From: Argopecten irradians
Lineage: Eukaryota; Mollusca; Bivalvia; Pectinida; Pectinidae
Direction: 5' to 3'
DNA length: 64,000 bases
NCBI RefSeq assembly: GCF_041381155.1
Contig: NC_091134.1
Span: forward strand, 67,746,469-67,810,468
A program made the position numbers and the translations under genes. Of this stretch, positions 12,042-63,979 are shown in pieces (position 1 is the first letter of the stretch; every line of letters begins with the position of its first letter). Under the pieces are notes generated by a model. That model was not told where the DNA came from and made no database searches. It was given only the letters and a program-made list of their open reading frames with translations.

Positions 12042-12089
12042 ATGGCACAACCAGGATCGACTCAAACCACTGGGGTTTTACCCCCCGAG
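12042..12089 (+). CDS. CSTF3: CSTF3 exon 1
   Basis: Encodes the 16-residue N-terminus '[16 protein letters not shown]', a short low-complexity leader before the first HAT repeat. The start codon has a favourable context (aaaatgg). The donor is gag|gtaaga and the intron is in phase 0. Confidence 0.85.
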
Positions 12090-27000: not shown

Positions 27001-30000
27001 CTGATTTTCCCCCAGGGAGAGGATTAAATGTCCTATAGTTTATATTGGAAAAACACATTAATAAACATTATTTGTTCAATTTTCATGGGAAAGGAGTCCA
27101 ACTTGGTTAGAATTATTAGCATGGGATAGCATTTTAACATCATATCCATATATAGATTACGGTTGACCTTCAGGAGCCATAGGAGTGAGGCAAAAAGAGG
27201 TCAAAGTTACTGAAATTTCAAAAACCTTCTGAATTCACAGATGTAATGGAATCAAATACTTTTCTTTGATTAAAAGGTAAAATTGAATTTGAGACCAAAA
27301 ACTCTTGTATGGAGGGATTTCCCCAGGAAATTGTGAAAATCTAGATGTTTCTAAGTGGTCATTACTAAAATCAATAATTTCTCACAAAAAATGGATGGAA
27401 TAGTTTTTAATAGATTAGACTGAAGCTGGGGAATAGTTTTTAATAGATTAGACTGAAGCTGGGGTATTTCAGTCCTAACAATTCAATCGAGATCTGGGTT
27501 TGTCAACCAGCAGATATATTTATTTCATTAACAAGAGGCCCAGACGGCCTGTATCGCTCACCTGGTTTGTAATGCCAAGTAATGTTCTAAATACAGGTTC
27601 ATTGTTTCTTTTCTGAAGGAATTTTAATATTTACCTCTAATTGCCCTATTGGGCCCCGCCCCTCCTGCCCCCAGCGGGTCAGAGGCAAAATTTATACAAG
27701 TTCTGTTCCCTCTCCCCCAAGGATGTTTGTGGCCAAATTTGGTTACAATCCATGCAGAACTCTAGGACAAGTAGCGATTTATAGGAATTACCTCTATTTC
27801 CCCTATTGGGCCCTGTCCCTCTTGTCCCCAGGGGGTCAGAGCCAAAATTCATACAAGTTCTGTTCACCTTCCCCCAAGGATGTTTTTGACCAAATTTGGT
27901 TACAATCCATGCAGAACTCTAGGACAAGTAGCTATAGGGATTTATAGAATAACCTCTATTTCCCCTATAAGGCCCCGCCTATCCTGCCCCCGGGGGGTCA
28001 GGGCCAAAATTTATACATGTTCTGTTCCCCTTCCCCCAAGAAAGTTATTGGCCAAATTTGGTTACAATCCATGCAGAACGCTTGGACAAGAAGCGATTTA
28101 TAGGATTTACCTCTATTTCCCCTGTTGGGCCCCGTCCCTCTTGTCCCTGGCGGGGGTCAGAGCCAAAATTTATACAAGTTCTGTTCCCCTTCCCCCCAGG
28201 ATGTTTGTGGCCAAATTTGGTTACAATCCATGTAGAACTCTAGGACAAGTAGCCATTTATAGGATTTACCTCTATTTCCCCTATTGGGCCCTGCCCCTCT
28301 TGTCCCCGTGGGTTCAGAGCCAAAATTTATACAAGTTCTGTTCCCCTTCCCCAAGGATGTTTTTGACTAAATTTGGTTACAATTCATGCAGAACTCTAGG
28401 ACAAGTAGCTTTTTATAGAATTACCTCTATTTCCCTTATTGGGCCCCACCCCTCCTGCCCCTTTGGGGTCAGAGCCAAAATTTATACAAGTTCTGTTCCC
28501 CTTCCCCCAAGGATGTTATTGGCCAAATTTGGTTCCAATCCATGTAGAACTCTAGGACAAGTAGCGATTTATAGGATTTACCTCTATTTCCCCTATTGGG
28601 CCCTGCCCCTCCTGGCCCCAGGGGGTCAGAGCCAAAATTGATACAGGTTCTGTTCCCCCTCCCCCAAGGATGTTTGTGGCCAAATTTTGTTACAATCCAT
28701 GCAGGACTCTATGACTAGTAGCGATTTAAAGGAAATGTTGACGGACAGACGGATGGACGGACGGGCCAGGTGAGCTAAAAATATAGATATTTAAAATATC
28801 ACAATAGAGATATGACACAGATATGATAAAAATATAGATATTTTAAATCTCACAATAGAGATATGACACGGCTATCATAAAAATACAGACATTTTAAATC
28901 TCACAATAGAGATATGACACAGCTATAATAAAAATATAGACATTTAAAATCTCACAATAGAGTCATGACACAGATATAATAAAAACACAATAGAGATATG
29001 ACACAGATATAATAAAAATATAGATATTTAAAATATCACAATAGAGATATGACACAGATATAATAAAAATATAGATATTTAAAATCTCACAATAGAGATA
29101 TGACACAGATATAATAAAAATATAGATATTTAAAATCTCACAATAGAGATATGACACAGATATAATAAAAATATAGATATTTAAAATCTCACAATAGAGA
29201 TATGACACAGATATAAAAAAAATATAGACATTTTAAATCTCACAATAGAAATATGACACAGATATGTGATTCATGTACTATATCAAGGCATTCAATTTTC
29301 TATGGGCCTTGGAACAATGCTATAACACATGTTAACATAATTTCAAAAACAATGACATACCTGGTAGAACTGTTGAGCTCAATCAAACTAAAACGTAGGC
29401 GCTTGTTTATGACAGTAACAGCATGCCAATCAACATCAAGCAACACATTACTAAATTTTTAGCATCCAAACTTGAATTAAATGGCCCATAACTTTCACCA
29501 AACTTTGATGTGTGTCAGTGCCTGTGTGTCTGGATTAGAATGAAACTTTCATACAATGGAATATTTTATTAGGTGAATTCTCGCATAGAAAAACTTTCAC
29601 CCCTATAATCAGCTGGTGGTTCTTAAAGTGAATAGTCGGGCGAAGAAAACCAGTCTTAATGCGTTTATTGGCCTTCCAAAAGTTCTCACATATTAATACA
29701 ACTGTCAAGGTCTGCTTAGTTTCCCAGTTCTGACCATTAAAGTAAAGAAAAGTTGAAAGCATTGAAAGTGAGGCTGCGTGGAAATGTAACCACGGACATA
29801 GTGAGCCGGGAGGACGTTCTAGAATTCCCATACTTTAAATTAATTTCTTCATATGCAGACAGATTTTGACAAGAGATTTTATTTTTCCATTTCTTAAGAA
29901 ATTATACTGGATACATTCACACCATTTTTACCGACTTTAGCCATCCTTGCCCGACTGTTCTCTTTAATTTATTCTGTATTAAGAATACAAGATGGCCACC

Positions 30001-33000
30001 ATGGCTTCTGAATGGCTGACATAATATTCAGTTACAGCTTTTATGTCACAATTAAAGCTTAGTGAAAAGGCGGATGTATTTTGTAATATTGAACAGTCAT
30101 CAGACAAAAAGGATTGCTGCAAATAAGCCAAGACTTTTTTCATAGTCATATGGAGACATTGCCAGATTTGTTTTTTATATACATAAAGACACATATAGAT
30201 GATAATTTAAAATAGATGTAATTAATATTTACTATGACAGTAATAATACTGCCATTTATAGAGATCTTACTTGCAGGAATAAAATCTTAGAGTGTGGATA
30301 CAGTAAAACATGGATGTAACAAACCTCAGGGGACCAATGTTATCACTTTGTTATAAGCATAGTTTGTTATACATACATAAAGGAACCTTGACGAGGAATG
30401 AAAATTACCATGATAACCATTAATCTGTTGTAGACTTGTTTGTACAAAAATCTTTTACTGTATACTACTTGAATGAATTGAAACAAATAGGACAATTTTA
30501 CTGTTACAGTACATCATTATTCATCATACAGACATTATTTAATTCAGCACAATGACATCATCATCACAAAATAGCTGATTTGTCTGAAAAATTTATTATT
30601 GTTTTCATTGTTTGCAGTTGAAAGCCAAAAATTACGAAAGAGTTGAAAAGGTAAGAATACAAAAAAAATTTGAATTCTGATTAAAAAAATGAAATGTGTT
30701 TGATGAAATACATACAGTGTAGTTTGAAAACATTTGCTCATTGTACATTTGTAACATATATATTGTATACCGATGAGCATCAGATAAAGGTTATCAAAGG
30801 TCATAGAAAGGTCACAAAGGTATTTAAATAGTGAAAAGACACCAGGGAATGGCCAACATGTAGGTTAGCATTTGTTATTTTAGGCAGTCAAAAACAGGTT
30901 GGAATGATATACATTTATGGATATTAAAAGTAAAAGGAAGGTTTTAGACCAACAAGGAGATCAAACTGGTCAAGCTAAGATGATTTGAATATTTTTGTTA
31001 AAAAGAATGATGAATGAATAAAAACTAAGTGAAATGGTCCAGGAAAGGTCAATCACAGAATATAAGGTCACCAGAGTTTACAAAGGGAAATCACTGAAGA
31101 ATCAACGGTACTTTAGAGTACTATATATACTGCAAGTCACAGAAGTCAGCAGGGTATAGATAGCAAAGGCCAGTTGTATAGAGTTGAATGTCAATTAAAG
31201 ACCAACAGGGTCAAGCAAAGACCAACAGGGTCAAGCAATGACCAACAGGGTCAAGCAATGACCAACAGGGTCAAGCAAAGACCAACAGGGTCAAGCGAAT
31301 TCAGCAGTGTATAGATCAATTAAACGTTGTGGGAAAGGAAATTAATTTGTCTACAGGATGAAAATCTTGATGAAAATATGATGAAGGTTTAGGTCTCGCT
31401 GGATATTTCCATTACATTCACATTGAAGATGATATATTCTAACTTTGTAGCTGGATATTTCCATTACATTCACATTGAAGATGATATATTCTAACTTTGT
31501 AGCTGGATATTTCCATTACATTCACATTGAAGATGATATATTCTAACTTTGTAGCTGGATATTTCCATTACATTGAAGATGATATATTCTAACTTTGTAG
31601 CTGGATATTTCCATTACATTCACATTGAAGATGATATATTCTAACTTTGTAGCTGGATATTTCCATTACATTCACATTGAAGATGATATATTCTAACTTT
31701 GTAGCTGGATATTTCCATTCCATTCACATTGAAGATGATATATTCTAACTTTGTAGCTGGATATTTCCATTACATTCACATTGAAGATGATATATTCTAA
31801 CTTTGTAGCTGGATATTTCCATTACATTCACATTGAAGATGATATATTCTAACTTTGTAGCTGGATATTTCCATTCCATTCACATTGAAGATGATATATT
31901 CTAACTTTGTAGCTGGATATTTCCATTCCATTCACATTGAAGATGATATATTCTAACTTTGTAGCTGGATATTTCCATTCCATTCACATTGAAGATGATA
32001 TATTCTAACTTTGTAGCTGGATATTTCCATTACATTCACATTGAAGATGATATATTCTAACTTTGTAGCTGGATATTTCCATTCCATTCACATTGAAGAT
32101 GATATATTCTAACTTTGTAGCTGGATATTTCCATTCCATTCACATTGAAGATGATATATTCTAACTTTGTAGCTGGATATTTCCATTCCATTACATTGAA
32201 GATGATATATTCTAACTTTGTAGCTGGATATTTCCATTACATTCACATTGAAGATGATATATTCTAACTTTGTAGCTGGATATTTCCATTACATTCACAT
32301 TGAAGATGATATATTCTAACTTTGTAGCTGGATATTTCCATTCCATTCACATTGAAGATGATATATTCTAACTTTGTAGCTGGATATTTCCATTACATTC
32401 ACATTGAAGATGATATATTCTAACTTTGTAGCTGGATATTTCCATTACATTCACATTGAAGATGATATATTCTAACTTTGTAGCTGGATATTTCCATTAC
32501 ATTCACATTGAAGATGATATATTCTAACTTTGTAGCTGGATATTTCCATTACATTCACATTGAAGATGATATATTCTAACTTTGTAGCTGGATATTTCCA
32601 TTACATTCACATTGAAGATGATATATTCTAACTTTGTAGCTGGATATTTCCATTACATTCACATTGAAGATGATATATTCTAACTTTGTAGCTGGATATT
32701 TCCATTTCCATTCACATTGAAGATGATATATTCTAACTTTGTAGCTGGATATTTCCATTACATTCACATTGAAGATGATATATTCTAACTTTGTAGCTGG
32801 ATATTTCCATTCCATTCACATTGAAGATGATATATTCTAACTTTGTAGCTGGATATTTCCATTCCATTCACATTGAAGATGATATATTCTAACTTTGTAG
32901 CTGGATATTTCCATTACATTCACATTGAAGATGATATATTCTAACTTTGTAGCTGGATATTTCCATTACATTCACATTGAAGATGATATATTCTAACTTT

Positions 33001-36000
33001 GTAGCTGGATATTTCCATTACATTCACATTGAAGATGATATATTCTAACTTTGTAGCTGGATATTTCCATTCCATTCACATTGAAGATGATATATTCTAA
33101 CTTTGTAGCTGGATATTTCCATTCCATTCACATTGAAGATGATATATTCTAACTTTGTAGCTGGATATTTCCATTCCATTCACATTGAAGATGATATATT
33201 CTAACTTTGTAGCTGGATATTTCCATTCCATTCACATTGAAGATGATATATTCTAACTTTGTAGCTGGATATTTCCATTACATTCACATTGAAGATGATA
33301 TATTCTAACTTTGTAGCTGGATATTTCCATTCCATTCACATTGAAGATGATATATTCTAACTTTGTAGCTGGATATTTCCATTCCATTCACATTGAAGAT
33401 GATATATTCTAACTTTGTAGCTGGATATTTCCATTAATTCACATTGAAGATGATATATTCTAACTTTGTAGCTGGATATTTCCATTACATTCACATTGAA
33501 GATGATATATTCTAACTTTGTAGCTGGATATTTCCATTACATTCACATTGAAGATGATATATTCTAACTTTGTAGCTGGATATTTCCATTTCCATTCACA
33601 TTGAAGATGATATATTCTAACTTTGTAGCTGGATATTTCCATTACATTCACATTGAAGATGATATATTCTAACTTTGTAGCTGGATTTCCATTACATTCA
33701 CATTGAAGATGATATATTCTAACTTTGTAGCTGGATATTTCCATTACATTCACATTGAAGATGATATATTCTAACTTTGTAGCTGGATATTTCCATTACA
33801 TTCACATTGAAGATGATATATTCTAACTTTGTAGCTGGATTATTTCCATTACATTCACATTGAAGATGATATATTCTAACTTTGTAGCTGGATATTTCCA
33901 TTCCATTCACATTGAAGATGATATATTCTAACTTTGTAGCTGGATATTTCCATTACATTCACATTGAAGATGATATATTCTAACTTTGTAGCTGGATATT
34001 TCCATTCCATTCACATTGAAGATGATATATTCTAACTTTGTAGCTGGATATTTCCATTCCATTCACATTGAAGATGATATATTCTAACTTTGTAGCTGGA
34101 TATTTCCATTACATTCACATGAAGATGATATATTCTAACTTTGTAGCTGGATATTTCCATTCCATTCACATTGAAGATGATATATTCTAACTTTGTAGCT
34201 GGATATTTCCATTACATTCACATTGAAGATGATATATTCTAACTTTGTAGCTGGATATTTCCATTCCATTCACATTGAAGATGATATATTCTAACTTTGT
34301 AGCTGGATATTTCCATTACATTCACATTGAAGATGATATATTCTAACTTTGTAGCTGGATATTTCCATTACATTCACATTGAAGATGATATATTCTAACT
34401 TTGAGCTATATTTCTAACTTTGTAGCTGGATTCTATTTCCATTCCATTCACATTGAAGATGATATATTCTAACTTTGTAGCTGGATATTTCCATTACATT
34501 CACATTGAAGATGATATATTCTAACTTTGTAGCTGGATATTTCCATTACATTCACATTGAAGATGATATATTCTAACTTTGTAGCTGGATATTTCCATTA
34601 CATTCACATTGAAGATGATATATTCTAACTTTGTAGCTGGATATTTCCATTACATTCACATTGAAGATGATATATTCTAACTTTGTAGCTGGATATTTCC
34701 ATTACATTCACATTGAAGATGATATATTCTAACTTTGTAGCTGGATATTTCCATTACATTCACATTGAAGATGATATATTCTAACTTTGTAGCTGGATTA
34801 TTTCCATTCATTCACATTGAAGATGATATATTCTAACTTTGTAGCTGGATATTTCCATTACATTCACATTGAAGATGATATATTCTAACTTTGTAGCTGG
34901 ATATTTCCATTCACATTGAAGATGATATATTCTAACTTTGTAGCTGGATATTTTTCCATTCACATTGAAGATGATATATTCTAACTTTGTAGCTGGATAT
35001 TCCATTCACATTGAAGATGATATATTCTAACTTTGTAGCTGGATATTTCCATTATACATTTACAGTGATGTTTTCTATCTGTTACAGTTATTTCCATTTT
35101 CACATTGAAGATGATGTTATTCTATCTTTTACTGTGATATATTACAGTATTTGTCTTCACAGTTGTTTACAGTGATAACATTTGTTTCACCTATCTGTTA
35201 CAGTGATGTTTTGCCTATCTGTTGTTTCACACATGTTTCTATTATCTGTTATGTTCTGTATACAGTGATGATGCTGATGTTTACATTTTACAGTGATGTT
35301 TCTATCTGTTTGTTTTTACCTATCTTTTTGATATTCTACAGTGATGTCTTTACCATGTTTGAATCTGTTACACAGTGATGTTTATCAAGCCTTCTGAAAC
35401 AGTGATCTGTTACAGTGTGTTTGCCTATCTGTTACAGTGATCTTTATGTATTACAAGTGATTTTGTTATCTGTTACAGTGATGTTTGCCTATCTGTTACA
35501 GTGATGTTTGTCTTATCTGTTACAGTATGTTGTTGCCTCCAGTATTACAGTGATGTTACCATGTATCTGTGATGTTTTTACAGTGATGTTTGCACTATCT
35601 GTTACAGTGAGATGTTTGCTATACATGATTTTTACTAGATGATGATGGGTTACATCATGTCTTACAGTGATGTTTGCTATCTGTTACAGTGATGTTTACA
35701 GTTGATGTTTACCTATCTGTTACAGTGATGTTTACTATCTGTTACAGTGCATGTTTGTTATTATTTACAAGCATGATATTTATCTGTTACAGAATGTTTC
35801 CTATCTGTTACAGTGATGATGTTTGCCTATCTGTTACAGTGATGTTTCATCTGTTACAGTAATGATGTTTACCATTATCTGTTACAGTGATGCTTTCTAT
35901 CTGTTACAGTGATGTTTGCCTATCTGTTACAGTGATGTTTGCCTATCTGTTACAGTGATGTTTAACTATCTGTTACTGAGTTTGAAATACCTATCTGTTA

Positions 36001-39000
36001 CAGTGATGTTTACCTTTTAGCTATCAGTGATGTACCTATCTGTTACAGTGAGTCAGACTAGTATCTGTTACAGTGAGGTTTACCTATCTGTTACAGTGAT
36101 GTTTGACCTATCTGTTACAGTGATGTTTATCCTATCTATCTGTTACAGTGCTCTGTTACAGTTGGCTATCTGTTACTCGGATGTTTATACTATCTGTTAC
36201 AGTGTATGTTTGCCTATCTGTTACTGTTTACTATCTGTTACAGTGAGTTCTTTGTTACAGTGATGTTTGCCTGAGAGTGATGTTTACCTATCTGTTACAG
36301 TGATGTTTGCCTATCTGTTACAGTGATGAGAACTCTCTCTGTTACAGTGATCAGTTGATCCTCTGTTACAGTAACCAAGAGGTGAGTTTGAATACAGTGG
36401 CAGATCTGATGAGTTTACCTAATGTTTTATCAAATTTGCTCTATCTGTTACAGTTACTTTTCATTATTTTTTTTTCACCCTTTCTGTTACAGTTATGTTT
36501 TACCTATGTTACAGTATTTTGTGTATGACACATTATGATATATGTTTCATATATAGTGATTTTGCCTATCTGTTACTGTATTGTTTGACTACAGAGTTAC
36601 TGTTGATGTCATATGCCTATCTGTTACAGCGTTTCATCTGTTACAGGATGTTCTACCATCTGTGGACAGTGATGTTTCTAACCCAATGATAAACAGTGAT
36701 GTTTGCTCTGTGGTTGCCTACTGTGTTATGTTTTAAAACGTATCTGTTTACAGTGCTCCAAGAATGAAACACCTTTATTGAATTTACACTGATGTTTAAT
36801 TTTATGTCAATCTGTTACATTGATGATGTTTTGCTCATGGACTGTTACAGTGATTTGTCCAGTATCAGCTGTTACATGATGTAACATTGCCATGACATAT
36901 GTTTATATCTGTTACAGTGATGTTTCTCACTCTCTGTTATGTAGTGAAATGTTGGTGTCCTTATTAATTATTCTGTACATGTTACAATTTTGTGAAGTGA
37001 GGAAATAATACACTTTATCTGTCTATCTGTTACAGTGATGTTTGCCTATCTGTTACAGTGATGTTTGCCTATCTGTTACAGTGATGTTTACCTATCTGTT
37101 ACAGTGATGTTTGTCTATCTGTTACAGTGATGTTTACCTATCTGTTACAGTGATGTTTGTCTATCTGTTACAGTGATGTTTACACTATCTGTTACAGTGA
37201 TGTTTTACCTATCTGTTACAGTGATGTTTACCTATCTGATCTTTACAGTGATGTTTGCCTATCTGTTACAGTGATGATGTTTGCCTATCTGTTACAGTGA
37301 TGTTTTACCTATCTGTTACAGTGATGTTTTACCTATCTGTTGATGTTTGTCTATCTGTTACAGTGATGTTTACCTATCTGTTACAGTGATGTTTGCCTAT
37401 CTGTTACAGTGATGTTTACCTATCTGTTACAGTGATGTTTGCCTATCTGTTACAGTGATGTTTACCTATCTGTTACAGTGATGTTTACCTATCTGTTACA
37501 GTGATGTTTGTCTATCTGTTACAGTGATGTTTACCTATCTGTTACAGTGATGTTTACCTATCTGTTACAGTGATGTTTACCTATCTGTTACAGTGATGTT
37601 TGCCTATCTGTTACAGTGATGTTTACCTATCTGTTACAGTGATGTTTACCTATCTGTTACAGTGATGTTTGCCTATCTGTTACAGTGATGTTTACCTATC
37701 TGTTACAGTGATGTTTACCTATCTGTTACAGTGATGTTACAGTGATGTTTGCCTATCTGTTACAGTGATGTTTGTCTATCTGTTACAGTGATGTGATTTA
37801 AACCTATCTGTTACAGTGATGTTTGCCTATCTGTTACATGATGTTTACCTATCTGTTACAGTGATGTTTGCCTATCTGTTACAGTGATGTTTGCCTATCT
37901 GTTACAGTGATGTTTGCTATCTGTTACAGTGAGTTTACCTATCTGTTACAGTGATGTTTGCTCTATCTGTTACAGTGATGTTTGCCTATCTGTTACAGTG
38001 ATTGTTTTGTCTATCTGTTACAGTGATGTTTTAGCCTATCTGTTACAGTGATGTTTGCCTATCTGTTTACAGTGATGTTTACCTATCTGACAGTGATGTT
38101 TGCCTATCTGTTACAGTGATGTTTACCTATCTGTTACAGTGATGTTTGCCTATCTGTTACAGTGATGTTTGCCTATCTGTTACAGTGATGTTTGCCTATC
38201 TGTTACAGTGATGTTTGCCTATCTGTTACAGTGATGTTGATGTTCTATCTGTTACAGTGATGTTTGCCTATCTGTTACAGTGATGTTTGCTCTATCTGTT
38301 ACAGTGATGTTTACCTATCTGTTACAGTGATGTTTGTCTATCTGTTACAGTGATGTTTGCCTATCTGTTACAGTGATGTTTACCTATCTGTTACAGTGAT
38401 GGTTTTACCTATCTGTTACAGTGATGTTTACCTATCTGTTACAGTGATGTTTGCCTATCTGTTACAGTGATGTTTACCTATCTGTTACAGTGATGTTTGC
38501 CTATCTGTTACAGTGATGTTTACCTATCTGTTACAGTGATGTTTACCTATCTGTTACAGTGATGTTTGCCTATCTGTTACAGTGATGTTTGCCTATCTGT
38601 TACAGTGATGTTTACATATCTGTTACAGTGATGTTTACCTATCTGTTACAGTGATGTTTGCCTATCTGTTACAGTGATGTTTGCCTATCTGTTATGTTTG
38701 TCTATCTGTTAGTGATGTTTACCTATCTGTTACAGTGATGTTTGCCTATCTGTTACAGTGATGTTTGCCTATCTGTTACAGTGATGTTTGCCTATCTGTT
38801 ACAGTGATGTTTGCCTATCTGTTACAGTGATGTTTACCTATCTGTTACAGTGATGTTTGCCTATCTGTTACAGTGATGTTTGCCTATCTGTTACAGTGAT
38901 GTTTGCCTATTCTGTTACAGTGATGTTTGCCTATATGTTACTGTTTACCTATTTGTTACAGTGATGTTTACCTATCTGTTACAGTGAGTGTTGTTTTACC

Positions 39001-42000
39001 TATCTGTTACAGTGATGTTTGCCTATCTGTTACAGTGATGTTTGCCTATCTATCTGTTACAGTGATGTTTACCTATCTGTTACAGTGATGTTTGCCTATC
39101 TGTTACAGTGATGTTTGTCTATCTGTTACAGTGATGTTTGCCTATCTGTTACAGTGATGTTTGCCTATCTGTTACAGTGATGTTTGCCTATCTGTTACAG
39201 TGATGTTTGTCTATCTGTTACAGTGATGTTTGTCTATCTGTTACAGTGATGTTTGCCTATCTGTTACAGTGATGTTTGTCTATCTGTTACAGTGATGTTT
39301 ACCTATCTGTTACAGTGATGTTTACCTATCTGTTACAGTGATGTTTACCTATCTGTTACAGTGATGTTTGCCTATCTGTTACAGTGATGTTTGCCTATCT
39401 GTTACAGTGATGTTTGCCTATCTGTTACAGTGATGTTTACCTATCTGTTACAGTGATGTTTGTCTATCTGTTACAGTGATGTTTGCCTATCTATCTGTTA
39501 CAGTGATGTTTACCTATCTGTTACAGTGATGTTTGCCTATCTGTTACAGTGATGTTTGCCTATCTGTTACAGTGATGTTTTGCCTATCTGTTACAGTGAT
39601 GTTTGCCTATCTGTTACAGTGATGTTTTCTATCTGTTACAGTGATGTTTACCTATCTGTTACAGTGATGTTTTGCTATATCTGTTACAGTGATGTTTACC
39701 TATCTGTTACAGTGATGTTTACCTATCTGTTACAGTGATGTTTGCCTATCTGTTACAGTGATGTTTGCCTATCTGTTACAGTGATGTTTACCTATCTGTT
39801 ACAGTGATGTTTGCCTATCTGTTACAGTGATGTTTGCCTATCTGTTACAGTGATGTTTACCTATCTGTTACAGTGATGTTTACCTATCTGTTACAGTGAT
39901 GTTTGCCTATCTGTTACAGTGATGTTTACCTATCTGTTACAGTGATGTTTGTCTATCTGTTACAGTGATGTTTACCTATCTGTTACAGTGATGTTTACCT
40001 ATCTGTTACAGTGATGTTTACCTATCTGTTACAGTGATGTTTGCCTATCTATCTGTTACAGTGATGTTTGCCTATCTGTTACAGTGATGTTTACCTATCT
40101 GTTACAGTGATGTTTGCCTATCTGTTACAGTGATGTTTGCCTATCTGTTACAGTGATGTTTACCTATCTGTTACAGTGATGTTTACCTATCTGTTACAGT
40201 GATGTTTGCCTATCTGTTACAGTGATGTTTACCTATCTGTTACAGTGATGTTTACCTATCTGTTACAGTGATGTTTGCCTATCTGTTACAGTGATGTTTG
40301 CCTATCTGTTACAGTGATGTTTACCTATCTGTTACAGTGATGTTTGCCTATCTGTTACAGTGATGTTTACCTATCTGTTACAGTGATGTTTTACCTATCT
40401 GTTACAGTGATGTTTACCTATCTGTTACAGTGATGTTTCCTATCTGTTACAGTGATGTTTGCCTTATCTGTTACAGTGATGTTTGCCTATCTGTTACAGT
40501 GATGTTTGTTTACCTATCTGTTACAGTGATGTTTACCTATCTGTTACAGTGATGTTTGCCTATCTGTTACAGTGATGTTTGCCTATCTGTTACAGTGATG
40601 TTTGCCTATCTGTTACAGTGATGTTTGCCTATCTGTTACAGTGATGTTTACCTATCTGTTACAGTGATGTTTGCCTATCTGTTACAGTGATGTTTACCTA
40701 TCTGTTACAGTGATGTTTACCTATCTGTTACAGTGATGTTTGCCTATCTGTTACAGTGATGTTTGTCTATCTGTTACAGTGATGTTTGCCTATCTATCTG
40801 TTACAGTGATGTTTGCCTATCTGTTACAGTGATGTTTGCCTATCTGTTACAGTGATGTTTACCTATCTGTTACAGTGATGTTTGTCTATCTGTTACAGTG
40901 ATGTTTGCCTATCTGTTACAGTGATGTTTACCTATCTGTTACAGTGATGTTTACCTATCTGTTACAGTGATGTTTGCCTATCTGTTACAGTGATGTTTAC
41001 CTATCTGTTACAGTGATGTTTGCCTATCTGTTACAGTGATGTTTGCCTATCTGTTACAGTGATGTTTACCTATCTGTTACAGTGATGTTTACCTATCTGT
41101 TACAGTGATGTTTGCCTATCTGTTACAGTGATGTCTATTGTTACAGTGATGTTTACCTATCTGTTACAGTGATGTTTGCCTATCTGTTACAGTGATGTTT
41201 GCCTATCTGTTACAGTGATGTTTGCCTATCTGTTACAGTGATGTTTACCTATCTGTTACAGTGATGTTTGCCTATCTGTTACAGTGATGTTTGCCTATCT
41301 GTTACTGTGATGTTTCTATCTGTTACAGTGATGTTTGTCTATCTGTTACAGTGATGTTTGCCTATCTGTTACAGTGATGTTTGCCTATCTGTTACAGTGA
41401 TGTTTGCCTATCTGTTACAGTGATGTTTGCCTATCTGTTACAGTGATGTTTGCCTATCTGTTACAGTGATGTTTGCCTATCTGTTACAGTGATGTTTGTC
41501 TATCTGTTACAGTGATGTTTGCCTATCTGTTACAGTGATGTTTGCCTATCTGTTACAGTGATGTTTGCCTATCTGTTACAGTGATGTTTCCTATCTGTTA
41601 CAGTGATGTTTGCCTATCTGTTACAGTGATGTTTTACCTATCTGTTACAGTGATGTTTGCCTATCTGTTACAGTGATGTTTACCTATCTGTTACAGTGAT
41701 GTTTATTGTGATGTTTGTGTATCTGTTACAGTGATGTTTACCTATCTGTTACAGTGATGTTTACCTATCTGTTACAGTGATGTTTGCCTATCTGTTACAG
41801 TGATGTTTACCTATCTGTTACAGTGATGTTTGCCTATCTGTTACAGTGATGTTTGCCTATCTGTTACAGTGATGTTTGCCTATCTGTTACAGTGATGTTT
41901 ACCTATCTGTTACAGTGATGTTTACCTATCTGTTACAGTGATGTTTGTCTATCTGTTACAGTGATGTTTACCTATCTGTTACAGTGATGTTTGCCTATCT

Positions 42001-45000
42001 GTTACAGTGATGTTTGTCTATCTGTTACAGTGATGTTTGTCTATCTGTTACAGTGATGTTTGCCTATCTGTTACAGTGATGTTTACCTATCTGTTACAGT
42101 GATGTTTACCTATCTGTTACAGTGATGTTTGCCTATCTGTTACAGTGATGTTTGCCTATCTGTTACAGTGATGTTTACCTATCTGTTACAGTGATGTTTA
42201 CCTATCTGTTACAGTGATGTTTGCCTATCTATCTGTTACAGTGATGTTTGCCTATCTGTTACAGTGATGTTTGCCTATCTGTTACAGTGATGTTTACCTA
42301 TCTGTTACAGTGATGTTTACCTATCTGTTACAGTGATGTTTGCCTATCTGTTACAGTGATGTTTGCTTATCTGTTTACAGTGATGTTTCCTATCTGTTAC
42401 AGTGATGTTTACCTATCTGTTACAGTGATGTTTACCTATCTGTTACAGTGATGTTTACCTATCTGTTACAGTGATGTTTGTCTATCTGTTACAGTGATGT
42501 TTGCCTATCTGTTACAGTGATGTTTGCCTATCTGTTACAGTGATGTTTACCTATCTGTTACAGTGATGTTTGCCTATCTGTTACAGTGATGTTTACCTAT
42601 CTGTTACAGTGATGTTTGCCTATCTGTTACAGTGATGTTTACCTATCTGTTACAGTGATGTTTGCCTATCTGTTACAGTGATGTTTGTCTATCTGTTACA
42701 GTGATGTTTTTACCTATCTGTTACAGTGATGTTTACCTATCTGTTACAGTGATGTTTGCCTATCTGTTACAGTGATGTTTACCTATCTGTTACAGTGAAG
42801 TTTACCTATCTGTTACAGTGATGTTTGCTTATCTGTTACAGTGATGTTTGTCTATCTGTTACAGTGATGTTTTTATCTATATCTGTTACAGTGATGTTTG
42901 CCTATCTGTTACAGTGATGTTTGCCTATCTGTTACAGTGATGTTTACCTATCTGTTACAGTGATGTTTGCCTATCTGTTACAGTGATGTTTGTCTATCTG
43001 TTACAGTGATGTTTACCTATCTGTTACAGTGATGTTTGTCTATCTGTTACAGTGATGTTTGCCTATCTGTTACAGTGATGTTTGTCTATCTGTTACAGTG
43101 ATGTTTGCCTATCTGTTACAGTGATGTTTGCCTATCTGTTACAGTGATGTTTACCTTATCTGTTACAGTGATGTTTGCCTATCTGTTACAGTGATGTTTA
43201 CCTATCTGTTACAGTGATGTTTGCCTATCTGTTACAGTGATGTTTGTCTATCTGTTACAGTGATGTTTACCTATCTGTTACAGTGATGTTTACCTATCTG
43301 TTACAGTGATGTTTGTCTATCTGTTACAGTGATGTTTGTCTATCTGTTACAGTGATGTTTGCCTATCTGTTACAGTGATGTTTACCTATCTGTTACAGTG
43401 ATGTTTACTATCTGTTACAGTGATGTTTGCCTATCTGTTACAGTGATGTTTGCCTATCTGTTACAGTGATGTTTGCCTATCTGTTACAGTGATGTTTGCC
43501 TATCTGTTACAGTGATGTTTGCCTATCTGTGTTACAGTGATGTTTGCCTATCTGTTACAGTGATGTTTACCTATCTGTTACAGTGATGTTTCCTATCTGT
43601 TACAGTGAGTGATGTTTGCCTATCTGTTACAGTGATGTTTGTCTATCTGTTACAGTGATGTTTCCTATCTGTTACAGTGATGTTTGCCTATCTGTTACAG
43701 TGATGTTCCTATCTGTTACAGTGATGTTTACCTATCTGTTACAGTGATGTTTACCTATCTGTTACAGTGATGTTTGCCTTTCTGTTACAGTGATGTTTGC
43801 CTATCTATCTGTTACAGTGATGTTTACCTATCTGTTACAGTGATGTTTGCTATCTGTTACAGTGATGTTTGTCTATCTGTTACAGTGATGTTTGCCTATC
43901 TGTTACAGTGATGTTTGCCTATCTGTTACAGTGATGTTTACCTATCTGTTACAGTGATGTTTGTCTATCTGTTACAGTGATGTTTGTCTATCTGTTACAG
44001 TGATGTTTGCCTATCTGTTACAGTGATGTTTACCTATCTGTTACAGTGAAGTTTACCTATCTGTTACAGTGATGTTTGCTTATCTGTTACAGTGATGTTT
44101 ACCTATCTGTTACAGTGATGTTTACCTATCTGTTACAGTGATGTTTGCCTATCTGTTACAGTGATGTTTACAGTGATGTTTGTCTATCTGTTACAGTGAT
44201 GTTTACCTATCTGTTACAGTGATGTTTGCCTATCTGTTACAGTGATGTTTGCCTATCTGTTACAGTGATGTTTACCTATCTGTTACAGTGATGTTTACCT
44301 ATCTGTTACAGTGATGTTTGCCTATCTGTTACAGTGATGTTTACCTATCTGTTACAGTGATGTTTACCTATCTATCTGTTACAGTGATGTTTGTCTATCT
44401 GTTACAGTGATGTTTACCTATCTGTTACAGTGATGTTTGTCCTATCTGTTACAGTGATGTTTTATCTGTTACAGTGATGTTTGCTATCTGTTACAGTGAT
44501 GTTTACCTATCTGTTACAGTGATGTTTACCTATCTGTTACAGTGATGTTTACCTATCTGTTACAGTGATGTTTGTCCTATCTGTTACAGTGATGTTTACC
44601 TATCTGTTACAGTGATGTTTGTCTATCTGTTACAGTGATGTTTTACCTATCTGTTACAGTGATGTTTGTCTATCTGTTACAGTGATGTTTACCTATCTGT
44701 TACAGTGATGTTTGTCTATCTGTTACAGTGATGTTTGCCTATCTGTTACAGTGATGTTTGCCTATCTGTTACAGTGATGTTTCCTATCTGTTACAGTGAT
44801 GTTTGCCTATCTGTTACTGTTACAGTGATGTTTGCTATCTTTACAGTGATGTTTACCTATCTGTTACAGTGATGTTTACCTATCTGTTACAGTGATGTTT
44901 GCCTATCTGTTACAGTGATGTTTGTCTATCTGTTACAGTGATGTTTGCCTATCTGTTACAGTGATGTTTGCCTATCTGTTACAGTGATGTTTGCCTATCT

Positions 45001-48000
45001 GTTACAGTGATGTTTACCTATCTGTTACAGTGATGTTTGCCTATCTGTTACAGTGATGTTTACCTATCTGTTACAGTGATGTTTGCCTATCTGTTACAGT
45101 GATGTTTACCTATCTGTTACAGTGATGTTTGCCTATCTGTTACAGTGATGTTTGCCCTATCTGTTACAGTGATGTTTGCCTATCTGTTACAGTGATGTTT
45201 ACCTATCTGTTACAGTGATGTTTACCTATCTGTTACAGTGATGTTTGCCTATCTGTTACAGTGATGTTTACCTATCTGTTACAGTGATGTTTACCTATCT
45301 GTTACAGTGATGTTTGCCTATCTGTTACAGTGATGTTTGCCTATCTGTTACAGTGATGTTTACCTATCTGTTACAGTGATGTTTACCTATCTGTTACAGT
45401 GATGTTTGCCTATCTGTTACAGTGATGTTTGCCTATCTGTTACAGTGATGTTTGCCTATCTGTTACAGTGATGTTTACCTATCTGTTACAGTGATGTTTG
45501 CCTATCTGTTACAGTGATGTTTGCCTATCTGTTACAGTGATGTTTGCCTATCTGTTACAGTGATGTTTACCTATCTGTTACAGTGATGTTTGCCTATCTG
45601 TTACAGTGATGTTTACCTATCTGTTACAGTGATGTTTACCTATCTGTTACAGTGATGTTTGCCTATCTGTTACAGTGATGTTTGTCTATCTGTTACAGTG
45701 ATGTTTGCCTATCTGTTACAGTGATGTTTGCCTATCTGTTACAGTGATGTTTGCCTATCTGTTACAGTGATGTTTGCCTATCTGTTACAGTGATGTTTGC
45801 CTATCTGTTACAGTGATGTTTGCCTATCTGTTACAGTGATGTTTACCTATCTGTTACAGTGATGTTTGTCTATCTGTTACAGTGATGTTTGCCTATCTGT
45901 TACAGTGATGTTTGCCTATCTGTTACAGTGATGTTTACCTATCTGTTACAGTGATGTTTGCCTATCTGTTACAGTGATGTTTACCTATCTGTTACAGTGA
46001 TGTTTACCTATCTGTTACAGTGATGTTTGTCTATCTTTTACAGTGATGTTTGTCTATCTGTTACAGTGATGTTTGCCTATCTGTTACAGTGATGTTTACC
46101 TATCTGTTACAGTGATGTTTGTCTATCTGTTACAGTGATGTTTGCCTATCTGTTACAGTGATGTTTACCTATCTGTTACAGTGATGTTTGCCTATCTGTT
46201 ACAGTGATGTTTGCCTATCTGTTACAGTGATGTTTACCTATCTGTTACAGTGATGTTTGTCTATCTGTTACAGTGATGTTTACCTATCTGTTACAGTGAT
46301 GTTTGCCTATCTGTTACAGTGATGTTTACCTATCTGTTACAGTGATGTTTACCTATCTGTTACAGTGATGTTTGCCTATCTGTTACAGTGATGTTTACCT
46401 ATCTGTTACAGTGATGTTTACCTATCTGTTACAGTGATGTTTGCCTATCTGTTACAGTGATGTTTACCTATCTGTTACAGTGATGTTTACCTATCTGTTA
46501 CAGTGATGTTTGCCTATCTGTTACAGTGATGTTTGTCTATCTGTTACAGTGATGTTTACCTATCTGTTACAGTGATGTTTGCCTTTCTGTTACAGTGATG
46601 TTTGCCTATCTATCTGTTACAGTGATGTTTACCTATCTGTTACAGTGATGTTTGTCTATCTGTTACAGTGATGTTTGTCTATCTGTTACAGTGATGTTTA
46701 CCTATCTGTTACAGTGATGTTTGCTTATCTGTTACAGTGATGTTTGTCTATCTGTTACAGTGATGTTTGTCTATCTGTTACAGTGATGTTTGCTTATCTG
46801 TTACAGTGATGTTTACCTATCTGTTACAGTGAAGTTTACCTATCTGTTACAGTGATGTTTGCTTATCTGTTACAGTGATGTTTGCCTATCTGTTACAGTG
46901 ATGTTTACCTATCTGTTACAGTGATGTTTACCTATCTGTTACAGTGATGTTTGCCTATCTGTTACAGTGATGTTTACCTATCTGTTACAGTGATGTTTAC
47001 CTATCTGTTACAGTGATGTTTGCCTATCTGTTACAGTGATGTTTACCTATCTGTTACAGTGATGTTTACCTATCTGTTACAGTGATGTTTACCTATCTGT
47101 TACAGTGATGTTTACCTATCTGTTACAGTGATGTTTGCCTTATCTGTTACAGTGATGTTTTACCTATCTGTTACAGTGATGTTTACCTATCTGTTACAGT
47201 GATGTTTTGCTTATCTGTTACAGTGATGTTTGTCTATCTGTTACAGTGATGTTTGTCTATCTGTTACAGTGATGTTTGCCTATCTGTTACAGTGATGTTT
47301 ACCTATCTGTTACAGTGATGTTTGCCTATCTGTTACAGTGATGTTTACCTATCTGTTACAGTGATGTTTACCTATCTGTTACAGTGATTGCCTATCTGTT
47401 ACAGTGATGTTTACCTATCTGTTACAGTGATGTTTACCTATCTGTTACAGTGATGTTTGCCTATCTGTTACAGTGATGTTTACATATCTGTTACAGTGAT
47501 GTTTACCTATCTGTTACAGTGATGTTTGCCTATGAGCAGAGTTTATTGTGTCTTGGTCACCACCCTGACATCTGGTACGAGGCTGCATCTTACTTAGAGG
47601 AGTCGAGTAAAATCCTGACAGAGAAAGGGGTATGTACTGTGAAACCAGAAAATCATGTTCATGTTAGCTACATTTATCATTTTTTATAGGATATCAATTA
47701 TCATGTATAATTTTTAAAGCCGCTGATGGCTGAGTCAAGCAGCTTTATTAAGATAGGTGTTGGACCCATCTCCAGTTGATGTGTGCGCATCTACTGACTT
47801 TCAGTATCGAGAATTCGCCAGATAAGATAAACAAGTGATAGCCATATCACCAACCTGTTCATTTTATTATAATCATAACTTGATATTTTTGCAGTTCACA
47901 AATAGAAATGATTCGTGATGCAATTTTCTGTATTATAAGCGTGTTTCCCAGTGGGTATATGGCTTCAGACGATGACCTTGTTTTGGTCGCTGGCAGTAGC

Positions 48001-51000
48001 TTTGTTGTACGGTACACTTTCTGAAAATAAGACACATGCAGTGGGGTATTCAACACACATGGTTTCAATCTTCAAACTTATTATATCTGTATAACTGCTT
48101 AAGTGCAAGATTATACAAATGTGTATATATGCAAGGATGTATATCTCACTTATAAATCCTTGGTATAAACATATAAAAAACATATTAAGAAAATGTAATG
48201 TGTAATTGTAATTAATTACTTTTTGAATGTAATTGTAATTGTAATTAATTACATTTACAAAACTGAGTAATTGTAATTGTAATTGTAATTGAGATTTGAC
48301 CAAGTAATTGTAATCGTAATTAATTACATTGCAATGTAATTGACCCCAACCCATTGGTTTGTAGGTAACATCGGGGTATTCAACACACATGGTTTGTAGG
48401 TAACATCGGGGTATTCAACACACATGGTTTGTAGGTAACATCGGGGTATTCAACACACATGGTTTGTAGGTAACATCGGGGTATTCAACACACATGGTTT
48501 GTAGGTAACATTGGGGTATTCAACACACATGGTTTGTAGGTAACATCGGGGTATTCAACACACATGGTTTGTAGGTAACATCGGGGTATTCAACACACAT
48601 GGTTTGTAGGTAACATCGGGGTATTCAACACACATGGTTTGTAGGTAACATCGGGGTATCCAACACACGTGGTTTGTAGGTAACATCGGGGTATTCAACA
48701 CACGTGGTTTGTAGGTAACATCGGGGTATTCAACACACGTGGTTTGTAGGTAACATCGGGGTATTCAACACACGTGGTTTGTAGGTAACATCGGGGTATT
48801 CAACACACGTGGTTTGTAGGTAACATCGGGGTATTCAACACACATGGTTTGTAGGTAACATCAGGGTATTCAACACACATGGTTTGTAGGTAACATCGGG
48901 GTATTCAACACACATGGTTTGTAGGTAACATCGGGGTATTCAACACACATGGTTTGTAGGTAACATCGGGGTATTCAACACACGTGGTTTGTAGGTAACA
49001 TCGGGGTATTCAACACACGTGGTTTGTAGGTAACATCGGGGTCTCCAACACACATGGTTTGTAGGTAACATCGGGGTATCCAACACACATGGTTTGTAGG
49101 TAACATCGGGGTATCCAACACACATGGTTTGTAGGTAACATCGGGGTATTCAACACACGTGGTTTGTAGGTAACATCGGGGTATTCAACACACGTGGTTT
49201 GTAGGTAACATCGGGGTATTCAACACACATGGTTTGTAGGTAACATCGGGGTATTCAACACACATGGTTTGTAGGTAACATCGGGGTATTCAATACACAT
49301 GGTTTGTAGGTAACATCGGGGTATTCAACACACGTGGTTTGTAGGTAACATCGGGGTATTCAACACACGTGGTTTGTAGGTAACATCGGGGTATCCAACA
49401 CACGTGGTTTGTAGGTAACATCGGGGTATTCAACACACGTGGTTTGTAGGTAACATCGGGGTATTCAACACACATGGATTGTAGGTAACATCGGGGTATT
49501 CAACACACATGGTTTGTAGGTAACATCGGGGTATTCAACACACATGGTTTGTAGGTAACATCGGGGTATTCAACACACATGGTTTGTAGGTAACATCGGG
49601 GTATTCAACACACGTGGTTTGTAGGTAACATCGGGGTATTCAACACACGTGGTTTGTAGGTAACATCGGGGTATTCAACACACATGGTTTGTAGGTAACA
49701 TCGGGGTATTCAACACACATGGTTTGTAGGTAACATCGGGGTATTCAACACACGTGGTTTGTAGGTAACATCGGGGTATCCAACACACATGGTTTGTAGG
49801 TAACATCGGGGTATTCAACACACATGGTTTGTAGGTAACATCGGGGTATTCAACACACATGGTTTGTAGGTAACATCGGGGTATTCAATACACATGGTTT
49901 GTAGGTAACATTGGGGTATTCAACACACATGGTTTGTAGGTAACATCGGGGTATTCAACACACATGGTTTGTAGGTAACATCGGGGTATCCAACACATGT
50001 GGTTTGTAGGTAACATCGGGGTATTCAACACACGTGGTTTGTAGGTAACATCGGGGTATTCAACACACATGGATTGTAGGTAACATCGGGGTATTCAACA
50101 CACATGGTTTGTAGGTAACATCGGGGTATTCAACACACATGGTTTGTAGGTAACATCGGGGTATTCAACACACATGGTTTGTAGGTAACATCGGGGTATT
50201 CAACACACGTGGTTTGTAGGTAACATCGGGGTATTCAACACACGTGGTTTGTAGGTAACATCGGGGTATTCAACACACGTGGTTTGTAGGTAACATCGGG
50301 GTATTCACAACACACGTGGTTTGTAGGTAACATCGGGGTATTCAACACACATGGTTTGTAGGTAACATCGGGGTATTCAACACACATGGTTTGTAGGTAA
50401 CATCGGGGTATTCAACACACATGGTTTGTAGGTAACATCGGGGTATTCAACACACGTGGTTTGTAGGTAACATCGGGGTATTCAACACACGTGGTTTGTA
50501 GGTAACATCGGGGTATTCAACACACATGGTTTGTAGGTAACATCGGGGTATTCAACACACGTTGTTTGTAGGTAACATCGGGGTATTCAACACACATGGT
50601 TTGTAGGTAACATCGGGGTATTCAACACACGTTGTTTGTAGGTAACATCGGGGTATCCAACACACATGGTTTGTAGGTAACATCAGATCTGTAGGATAGA
50701 TTATTTTAAGATGAAGCAATTAAAATTTTGCAGCAGCATTTTATGTCATACTGACATAATTCTAATTTTAAATGTTACTGAACAGGCATTAATATGAACA
50801 CTTATTGATATATAGGACTTTAAAGACTTTGTCAAAGCTCCCTGAAAGGCAACATTAATTACTTCTGTCATCTTTTTCTAACAAAAAAACATCTGCAGTA
50901 CTGTAGATATGGTATGATTTGGCCCTTGTGTTAATTATATGTCTAACAGTAACTGTGGTCTTTCACAAAGTCTTATTGACTTATACCAACCGATTCATGA

Positions 51001-54000
51001 TAGACTTTTACCAACCAATTCATGATGGAATGGAGGCTGTGTGTTCACGAATTGTTATTATTGGACTTGCAGGATCAGAATGCTGGGAAGATGTTTGCTG
51101 ATGAGGCCGCTGCAGTATATGAGCGTGCCATCACAACACTCATGAAAAACAACATGTTGGTTTACTTTGCTTATGCTGATTTTGAGGAGGTAGGCATTTA
51201 ATGTGGCGTAATTTCAAATTTCATTTTGCTGATGTCAAATTTGATACTTTAATTTCTGTATGACTGTACTATGAACAATTAATAAAATAACAAAATCTCA
51301 TAAGCTATTGATGATTACTTGTATATTTTTTCAGAGTCGTATGAAATATGAAAAAGTCCACAGTATCTATAAAAGAAATTTGAGTGTACAAGATGTGGAT
51401 CCAACTTTGGTAAGATTTGGAGAATGCCCACAATTCAGTGGTTCAATACTAGAAAATACCCATTTACAAAATTTAGCATTGTACATGAATTAGCACTTCA
51501 TAGATTATGTGAAAAGTTATAAAATAAAACTCTTCCTGAAAATAGGTATGTTTATTAGTCCTCGTACTTTGTGCGCCATGTGTCGGTGAAACCCAGGTGG
51601 ACTATAGTGTTTGTTCCCATACACAGGTATGTGTCATATTGTGGTACTTTGTGAGCCATGTTTACACAGTAGTCATATTGTGGTACTTTGTGAGCCATGT
51701 TTACACAGTAGTCATATTGTGGTACTTTGTGAGCCATGTTTTACACAAGTAGTCATATTTGTGGTACTTTGTGAGCCATGTTTTACACAGTAGTCATATT
51801 GTGGTACTTCATGAGCCATGTTTACACAGTAGTCATATTGTGGTACTGATTGTGAGCCATGTTTACACAGTAGTCATATTGTGGTACTTTGTGAGCCATG
51901 TTTACACAGTAGTCATATTGTGGTACTTTGTGAGCCATGTTTACACAGTAGTCATATTGTACTTTGTGAGCATGTTTACACAGTAGTCATATTGTGGTAC
52001 TTTGTGAGCCATGTTTACACAGTAGTCATATTGTGGTACGTTTTGTGAGCCATGTTTACACAGTAGTCATATTGTGGTACTTTGTGAGCCATGTTTACAC
52101 AGTAGTCATATTGTGGTACTTCATGAGCCATGTTTACACAGTAGTCATATTGTGGTACTTTGTGAGCCATGTTTACACAGTAGTCATATTGTGGTACTTT
52201 GTGAGCCATGTTTACACAGTAGTCATATTGTGGTTACTTTGTGAGCCATGTTTACACAGTAGTCATATTGTGGTACTTCATGAGCCATGTTTACACAGTA
52301 GTCATATTGTGGTACTTTGTGAGCCATGTTTACACAGTAGTCATATTGTGGTACTTTGTGAGCCATGTTTACACAGTAGTCATATTGTGGTACTTCATGA
52401 GCCATGTTTACACAGTAGTCATATTGTGGTACTTTGTGAGCCATGTTTACACAGTAGTCATATTGTGGTACTTTGTGAGCCATGTTTACACAGTAGTCAT
52501 ATTGTGGTACTTTGTGAGCCATGTTTACACAGTAGTCATATTGTGGTACTTTGTGAGCCATGTTTACACAGTAGTCATATTGTGGTACTTTGAGTGACAT
52601 GTTTACACAGTAGTCATATTGTGGTACTTTGTGAGCCATGTTTACACAGTAGTCATATTGTGGTACTTCTTGAGCCATGTTTACACAGTAGTCATATTGT
52701 GGTACTTTGGAGCCATGTTTACACAGTAGTCATATTGTGGTACTTTGTGAGCCATGTTTACACAGTAGTCATATTGTGGTACTTTGTGAGCCATGTTTAC
52801 ACAGTAGTCATATTGTGGTACTTTGTGAGCCATGTTTACACATGGTAGTCATTTATTGTGGTACTTTCATGAGCCATGTTTACACAGTAGTCATATTGTG
52901 GTACTTTGTGAGCCATGTTTACACAGTAGTCATATTGTGGTACTTTGTGAGCCATGTTTACACAGTAGTCATATTGTGGTACTTTGTGAGCCATGTTTAC
53001 ACAGTAGTCATATTGTGGTACTTTGTGAGCCATGTTTACACAGTAGTCATATTGTGGTACTTCATGAGCCATGTTTACACAGTAGTCATATTGTGGTACT
53101 TTGTGAGCCATGTTTACACAGTAGTCATATTGTGGTACTTTGTGAGCCATGTTTACACAGTAGTCATATTGTGGTACTTTGTGAGCCATGTTTTACACAG
53201 TAGTCATATGCTACACGGTGGTACTTCATGAGCCATGTTTACACAGTAGTCATATTGTGGTACTTTGTGAGCCATGTTTACACAGTAGTCATATTGTGGT
53301 ACTTTGTGAGCCATGTTTACACAGTAGTCATATTGTGGTACTTTGTGAGCCATGTTTACACAGTAGTCATATTGTGGTACTTTGTGAGCCATGTTTACAC
53401 AGTAGTCATATTGTGGTACTTTGTGAGCCATGTTTACACAGTAGTCATATTGTGTACTTGGTAGCCATGTTTACACAGTAGTCATATTGTGGTACCATGT
53501 TTACACAGTAGTCATATTGTGGTACTTTGTGAGCCATGAGCCATGTTTACACAGTAGTCATATTGTGGTACTTTGTGAGCCATGTTTACACAGTAGTCAT
53601 ATTGTGGTACTTTGTGAGCCATGTTTACACAGTAGTCATATTGTGGTACTTTGTGAGCCATGTTTACACAGTAGTCATATTGTGGTACTTTGTGAGCCAT
53701 GTTTACACAGTAGTCATATTGTGGTACTTTGTGAGCCATGTTTACACAGTAGTCATATTGTGGTACTTTGTGAGCCATGTTTACACAGTAGTCATATTGT
53801 GGTACTTTGTGAGCCATGTTTACACAGTAGTCATATTGTGGTACTTTGTGAGCCATGTTTACACAGTAGTCATATTGTGGTACTTTGTGAGCCATGTTTA
53901 CACAGTAGTCATATTGTGGTACTTTGTGAGCCATGTTTACACAGTAGTCATATTGTGGTACTTTGTGAGCCATGTTTACACAGTAGTCATATTGTGGTAC

Positions 54001-63054: not shown

Positions 63055-63979
63055 TTTTTTTAGCTTGTCCGTCGTCTGTCGGTAAATAATGCTTGTTACC
63101 GCTATTTCTTGAGAAGTACTCCACAGATATGTCTCAAATTTTACATGCATGGTTCCCTTGATTTTCAGACTGATCGGAAAAACAATTTGGCCACCAGGCA
63201 GCCATCTAGGATTTTGGCAGTTGATGTTTGTTACCGCTATTTCTCAGAAAGCACTGAAGGGATCGGTCTCAAATTTAATATGTAGGTTCCCCTAGGCCGA
63301 ATGACCGCTATCTTGGATTTTCGATGTTTGAAGTTTATTACCACTATTGTTCATAGTGTACTGAAGGGATCTGTCTCAAATTCAATGTAGTGCAGGTTCC
63401 CCTTGGGCCCTAGTTGTGCATATTGCATTTTGGGACTGATTGGTCAACAATATGACCGACCCGCCGCCATCTTGGATTTTAGTATTTGTTTTAGAGTTTG
63501 TTCCCGCTATTTCTGAGAATTACTGAATGCATTTGTCTGAAATTTCATATGTAGGTTCCCCTAGTACCCTTATAGTGCATATTGCATTTTGGGACCAATT
63601 GTGCACAAGATGATGGCCGACAGGCCGCCATCTTGGAATTTACTATTTGAAGTTTGTTACCTCTATTCTCAGAAAGTACAAAAGGGATCTGTCTCAAAGT
63701 TCTTATGCAGGTTCTACTTAGGCCCATGTTGTGCATATTGCATTTGCTATATGAAGTTTGTTACCGCCATTTCTCAGAAAGTACAGAAGGGATCTGTCTC
63801 AAATTTCTGAGAAATTACAGAATGAATCTGTCTGTAGGGAGACATCGGTCTTCAATATGGCTGACTGACCACCATCTTTGATTTTATAGTAAATTTTGAA
63901 ATGCAGAGAAAAGATAAATCTTTCGGATATCAGACAGATCTTTTTTTGGTGGGCGCCAAGATCCCTTTGGGATCTCTTG
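63055..63979 (+). mobile_element. Hairpin-family repeat, copy 3 (5' end degraded)
   Basis: Starts 'ttttagcttgtccgtcgtc' without the 5' hairpin. It contains about five diverged roughly 150-bp units with 'gtttgttaccgctatttctc', 'gaagggatctgtctcaaatt' and 'gccatcttgga', and ends 'ggtgggcgccaagatcc' and 'ctttgggatctcttg', like copies 1 and 2. It is older than copy 2, judging by its divergence. Confidence 0.7.

Follow-up and report, generated by a model that had tools for sequence, protein, structure and literature searches.

A 23-bp tandem array in the analysed window, a 64,000-nucleotide stretch of Argopecten irradians DNA, ends inside a coding exon of CSTF3, and its unit reproduces the 3' splice-site border of that exon. 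Our preferred reading, which we consider likely, is that a young array was seeded from this border, that its last copy is the acceptor in use, that exon definition and the decay of mis-spliced transcripts allow it to persist, and that its assembled length is only an estimate. Such an array would have arisen at the edge of an exon, and its founder would still be there under protein constraint. If the length is real, hundreds of near-equal 3' splice sites stand in a natural gene, 456 of the 457 ending in a stop.

The composition of the unit could be read directly at the border. The authentic copy (47511..47533, plus strand), placed by the sequence and the exon chain, combines the final 9 nt of the intron (ctgttacag) with the first 14 nt of the exon, and the array enters the exon by these 14 bp, continuing base for base (TG ATG TTT GCC TAT GAG CAG). 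A sequence-only reading of this DNA had proposed both the 9 intronic plus 14 exonic bases and this genuine copy, beyond which the exon goes on as GAGCAG, and both were borne out. The 110-nt exon (47520..47629, plus strand, donor gtatgt) matched the protein P0205 exactly from V283 on and matched PDB CstF-77 with an E value of 5.2e-16. It had been called exon 5; it is at least the sixth, because residues 94-282 of P0205 must be encoded after the fourth exon seen (30618-30650), and the exons for these residues belong between 30618-30650 and 47520-47629.

CSTF3 as assembled spans 12042..61355 on the plus strand, with 15 exons seen. The earlier naming of the gene was upheld by matches of a mammalian CSTF3 query placed from 14165 to 61352, by the PDB CstF-77 match and by the P0205 exon chain. 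Conserved CstF-77 sequence is encoded, with 481 of the 718 residues of P0205 present, and the gene is incomplete, as the other 237 residues (94-282 and 384-431) have no exon in the window. P0205 (718 aa) showed 93% identity to a composite query over 98%; its source carried the label lgn, with 14 member sequences and 8 contigs, the longest of 3,886 bp. The nearest named rows were Mytilus californianus (80%), Solemya velum (78%, with Solemya segments present in the composite query) and Sinanodonta woodiana (77%), and P0205 is likely from a bivalve. Exon chains with AG and GT borders gave residues 1-93, 283-383 and 432-718 without mismatch; shorter donors also fitted at 30641 and at 51383, 51385 and 51394, and the longest were taken. 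Because the gene spans 49 kb here, the P0205 contigs are shorter than 4 kb and the exons match exactly, we infer that P0205 represents spliced mRNA of the source species or a very close one. P0205 residue 82 is followed by an intron of 16 kb (14624-30617). PMC3708835 describes for vertebrate CSTF3 an intron 3 of very large size that contains an autoregulatory polyadenylation site.

A tandem-repeat finder (TRF) placed a period-23 array at 37023..47533 on the plus strand, with 456.2 copies, 92% matches and a score of 15150 (17715 at periods 46 and 69), and cyclic alignment of the same interval gave 456 full units plus a terminal CTAT over 10,511 bp, the last 14 bp of which are coding. The unit of this clean array is CTATCTGTTACAGTGATGTTTGC (23 bp); the exact 23-mer occurred 181 times in the window, and CTGTTACAG occurred 478 times, 438 of them within 37023-47533. 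The 456 units are head-to-tail copies of one unit, as in a minisatellite or satellite array, and the tandem arrangement is not a product of chance. The array had been given as 12 kb at 35056..47533, of which only 37023-47533 is clean. The repeat finder confirmed its presence; the roughly 500 consecutive 3' splice sites that had been proposed came down to 457 AGs, including the authentic one.

The clean array fitted the unit with 2.4% substitutions, 1.0% insertions and 0.8% deletions, and nearly all of the variation fell at unit positions 22-23, where the alanine codon of the exon has its first two bases. Outside these positions there were 21 substitutions; the indels of the array amounted to 103 inserted and 84 deleted bases (187 in total). 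Subtype counts at positions 22-23 across 457 rows gave GC in 204, AC in 176, GT in 55, AT in none and other bases in 22, which include the partial last row. The order of the GC, AC and GT subtypes along the array was no better than in shuffles, with no clustering, and no higher-order repeat was found in the array beyond shuffles (best lag agreement, 0.42; mean of shuffled maxima, 0.43). The longest exact internal repeat was 237 bp, and CTAT stands at each end (37023-37026 and 47530-47533). The array is real in the assembled sequence and unusual; its true length is uncertain.

Both gaps in the P0205 exon chain coincide with tandem arrays. A tblastn search with five molluscan proteins and P0205 did not exceed 26 bits, either for residues 94-282 (searched between 30653 and 47500) or for residues 384-431 (between 51409 and 57299), and the best rows in both intervals were translations of the arrays themselves. 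The first interval holds a 52-bp array (31398..35054, plus strand; TRF and exon mapping) besides the 23-bp array, and the space due to hold the exons for residues 94-282 is filled by the 52-bp array and the stretch on its right. The second holds a 39-bp array (51633..57099, plus strand; about 139 copies by TRF), at the place where the exon or exons for residues 384-431 are to be expected. A direct join of 30650 to 47520 reads AAG TGA, a stop. Because exons are missing and this join gives a stop, the existing mRNA cannot be produced from the locus as assembled. All letters of the window are A, C, G or T, with no N. The 39-bp array showed 0.6% substitutions against 2.2% indels, and the right end of the 52-bp array showed 3.9% indels. 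The indel excess there and in the 23-bp array is a sign of consensus error, unlike the 35-bp arrays at 48355-50684 (1.9% substitutions, 0.1% indels) and 16397-17863 (4.1% substitutions, 1.6% indels). Misassembly at long arrays is treated as a known problem in PMC6868369 and is the likely cause of the missing exons. Coding exons are lost from this sequence at array sites, which calls for caution, and since the assembly (less likely the allele) is broken, the copy number and the left edge of the 23-bp array are unreliable.

The left flank is disordered. The stretch 35056..36330 (plus strand) is degraded and 23-bp-like with some pieces of the 52-bp unit, as judged by 7-mer content and by its fit to the 23-bp unit (10.3% substitutions, 5.4% insertions, 7.8% deletions), and is probably a bad consensus at a misjoin. 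By 7-mer content, 36331..37022 (plus strand) consists for the most part of non-repeat, probably intronic sequence in which array fragments are scattered; unit 7-mers covered 39% of its bases, whereas the figure was 99% for the clean array and 1.0-5.4% for four control stretches. In the 1,967 bp of 35056-37022, 7-mers of the 23-bp unit covered 1,230 bases and 7-mers of the 52-bp unit another 74, which left 663 bases matching neither unit. An exon remnant with an ALITRR end, picked out by eye at 36320-36384, was not upheld by frame-tolerant alignments. The first comparison scored 32.7 on the plus strand, reached by none of 60 scrambled peptides, yet the minus strand gave 40.9 and an intron control 29.7; the second scored 21.4 on the plus and 29.2 on the minus strand, with other control stretches up to 33.0 and a scrambled maximum of 24.6 (n = 60). 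The 189 missing residues together scored 40.4 on the plus strand, 22.2 on the minus strand and 23.0-25.5 in three controls, and 20 scrambles reached 40.8. The fragment reads T-K-R where P0205 has ITRR, a poorer fit than the peptides first tried.

These defects raise the question of whether the array is mostly an assembly product, either a short real array that was inflated or array reads piled up beside a misjoin. The 237 residues without exons at arrays, the scrambled flank and the predominance of indel bases (187) over substitutions outside positions 22-23 (21), as residual long-read errors give, would all agree with such an origin. However, the array meets the exon at a clean right edge and in register, the single-copy exons show no error against P0205, and the three subtypes, the lack of internal copies longer than 237 bp and the lack of periodicity beyond shuffles are unlike duplicated assembly blocks, so that we regard this explanation as rather unlikely. 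A real deletion allele, in which the exons for residues 94-282 and 384-431 were lost by recombination between arrays while an intact allele makes the mRNA, seems improbable to a marked degree: it fits the coincidence of gaps with arrays and a window without N, but an essential gene would need to have lost exons in two separate events, and the 2-kb scrambled stretch resembles consensus error rather than a breakpoint.

Since P0205 joins ITRR directly to VMFAYEQ without an insert, its mRNA uses the last AG of the array. This last acceptor was the sole site seen in P0205, in a protein search to which mis-spliced mRNAs are invisible. When translation was followed from each array AG to the exon end, in the phase that the G of V283 dictates, 456 of the 457 led to a premature stop before that end, 382 of them after 8 codons, and the authentic one alone stayed open; the alternative sites are thus stop-coupled. 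With 65% pyrimidines and 21 nt free of AG, the authentic acceptor falls inside the range of the 13 other acceptors of the gene (55-75% pyrimidines; AG-free for 15 to more than 38 nt of the 40 nt examined). The GC unit has branch-point-like A's (nUnAy) at distances of 20 and 26 nt from the next AG downstream, and the AC unit that precedes the authentic acceptor has, as read from the sequence, a perfect yUnAy (TTTAC).

Under our preferred reading of a border-seeded array, each unit may be able to act as a minimal acceptor, with a branch-point-like A, a pyrimidine-rich stretch and a CAG, and the branch point in use would have to sit in the last one or two units. Exon definition, by pairing over the 110-nt exon with the downstream donor, would favour the last copy, and nonsense-mediated decay would remove mis-spliced transcripts, so that the array could be tolerated. 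Some points do not sit easily with this. Under the scanning rule as given in PMC1431707, the first AG past the branch point is taken and AGs closer than about 12-15 nt are bypassed, so that, with the branch point lying upstream of the array, the first AG would be picked; moreover, the GC unit has no perfect yUnAy, and the TTTAC of the AC unit is just 14 nt from the next AG.

The array might instead be functional, with hundreds of stop-coupled decoy acceptors leading to decay and setting CSTF3 output on top of the autoregulation known in vertebrates. We give this little credence. The coupling of 456 of the 457 AGs to stops is in line with it, as is the self-limitation of vertebrate CSTF3 by polyadenylation at a site within intron 3, described in PMC3708835, but the TGA after eight codons is in the unit itself, and stop-coupling therefore needs no selection. 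In its fullest form, about 450 sequence-equivalent 3' splice sites would compete, exon definition would pick the last, and the stop-coupled rest would act as a length-dependent brake on CSTF3, with array length tuning an mRNA 3'-end-processing factor; this is a conjecture that we would put forward with great reserve.

As to the origin of the array, the claim that the exon was the source and that its codons are conserved held up. The motif VMFAYEQ was found in 206 of 274 fetched proteins, with a close variant in 6 and neither in 62 (many of the proteins are vertebrate, isoforms overlap, and the 62 were taken as a group). If the two changes at positions 22-23 were independent, about 22 AT units would be expected, and none was observed; AC and GT thus each derive from GC, which is the exon's own sequence. 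Because VMFAYEQ is conserved and the variants radiate from an exon-identical GC, the exon is older than the array. Judging from the conserved residues, the GC-centred variant network and the CTAT at both ends, the seeding of the array from the CSTF3 exon border is well supported. The 23 bp across the border would have been duplicated in tandem and grown into a young satellite-like array, possibly starting by slippage or exchange between an intronic CTAT and the CTAT at exon bases 11-14; duplication between CTAT words 23 bp apart would leave the CTAT seen at both array ends. Arrays that grow by unequal exchange usually show local clustering of variants, and the unclustered subtypes count against this explanation. 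Comparison of unit translations with P0205 (15 comparisons) did not trace other arrays of the window to CSTF3 exons, 23-90 of 100 shuffled units being as good; this test is weak, as the 23-bp unit itself was not singled out, and the origin of that unit rests on its DNA continuity with the exon. It is hardly credible that a dispersed satellite arrived from elsewhere and replaced the start of the exon, even though oyster genomes contain many dispersed satellite-like arrays according to PMC7492417, because a foreign 14-mer happening to encode the conserved V-M-F-A-Y is very improbable and the exon sequence stands at the centre of the variant network. A scan of viral and prokaryote contigs, which are not the genomes that matter here, also gave no exact copy of the 23-mer.

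Intragenic minisatellites and VNTRs, such as the WDR7 intron repeat and the CEL and INS VNTRs, likewise repeat a unit of some tens of bp in tandem and arose within or close to a gene, whereas the CSTF3 unit contains a complete intron-exon border and its terminal copy is the authentic splice site. To our knowledge, studies of spliceosomal choice between equivalent 3' splice sites have mostly dealt with a few copies. NAGNAG tandem acceptors, and the post-branch-point AG competition presented in PMC1431707, also involve several AGs competing downstream of a branch point, but the CSTF3 array has 23-nt spacing, hundreds of copies and stop-coupling at all but one AG. The bivalve satellite-like arrays of PMC7492417, some of them Helentron-carried, are dispersed in the chromosomes and borne by mobile elements, in contrast to the CSTF3 unit, which matches a gene border and adjoins its source. 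CstF-77 autoregulation yields an unproductive RNA isoform of the same gene, but acts, in the account of PMC3708835, via polyadenylation in intron 3 and not via acceptor choice. A literature search found no title on an array of splice acceptors, which is weak evidence, as it covered titles only and most subscription journals were outside its scope.

A two-copy duplication with a period of 58 bp (57376..57487, plus strand) spans the 3' end and donor of another exon, 57299-57401. Its copies (57376-57429 and 57434-57487) differ by one mismatch, and the second donor is identical across the 15 bases compared. Use of the second donor would shift the frame to a stop; P0205 uses the first, so that the site giving the shorter exon is used, as at the array exon. 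Border duplications could not be established as a habit of the gene: 2 of 28 splice borders had a nearby copy, compared with 7 of 1000 control positions, and as one of the two is the array exon itself, the single other among 27 borders is not significant. At 48040-50684 lies a 35-bp array; intron sequence about 300 bp to its left (GGGGTATTCAACACACATGGTTT) is similar to the unit and is perhaps the seed of the array. Repeats of 156-157 bp, with at least two consensus sequences, occur at 18103-18436, 21731-23144, 27631-28734 and 63305-63745, a repeat length that presumably recalls the 160-bp satellites of bivalves.
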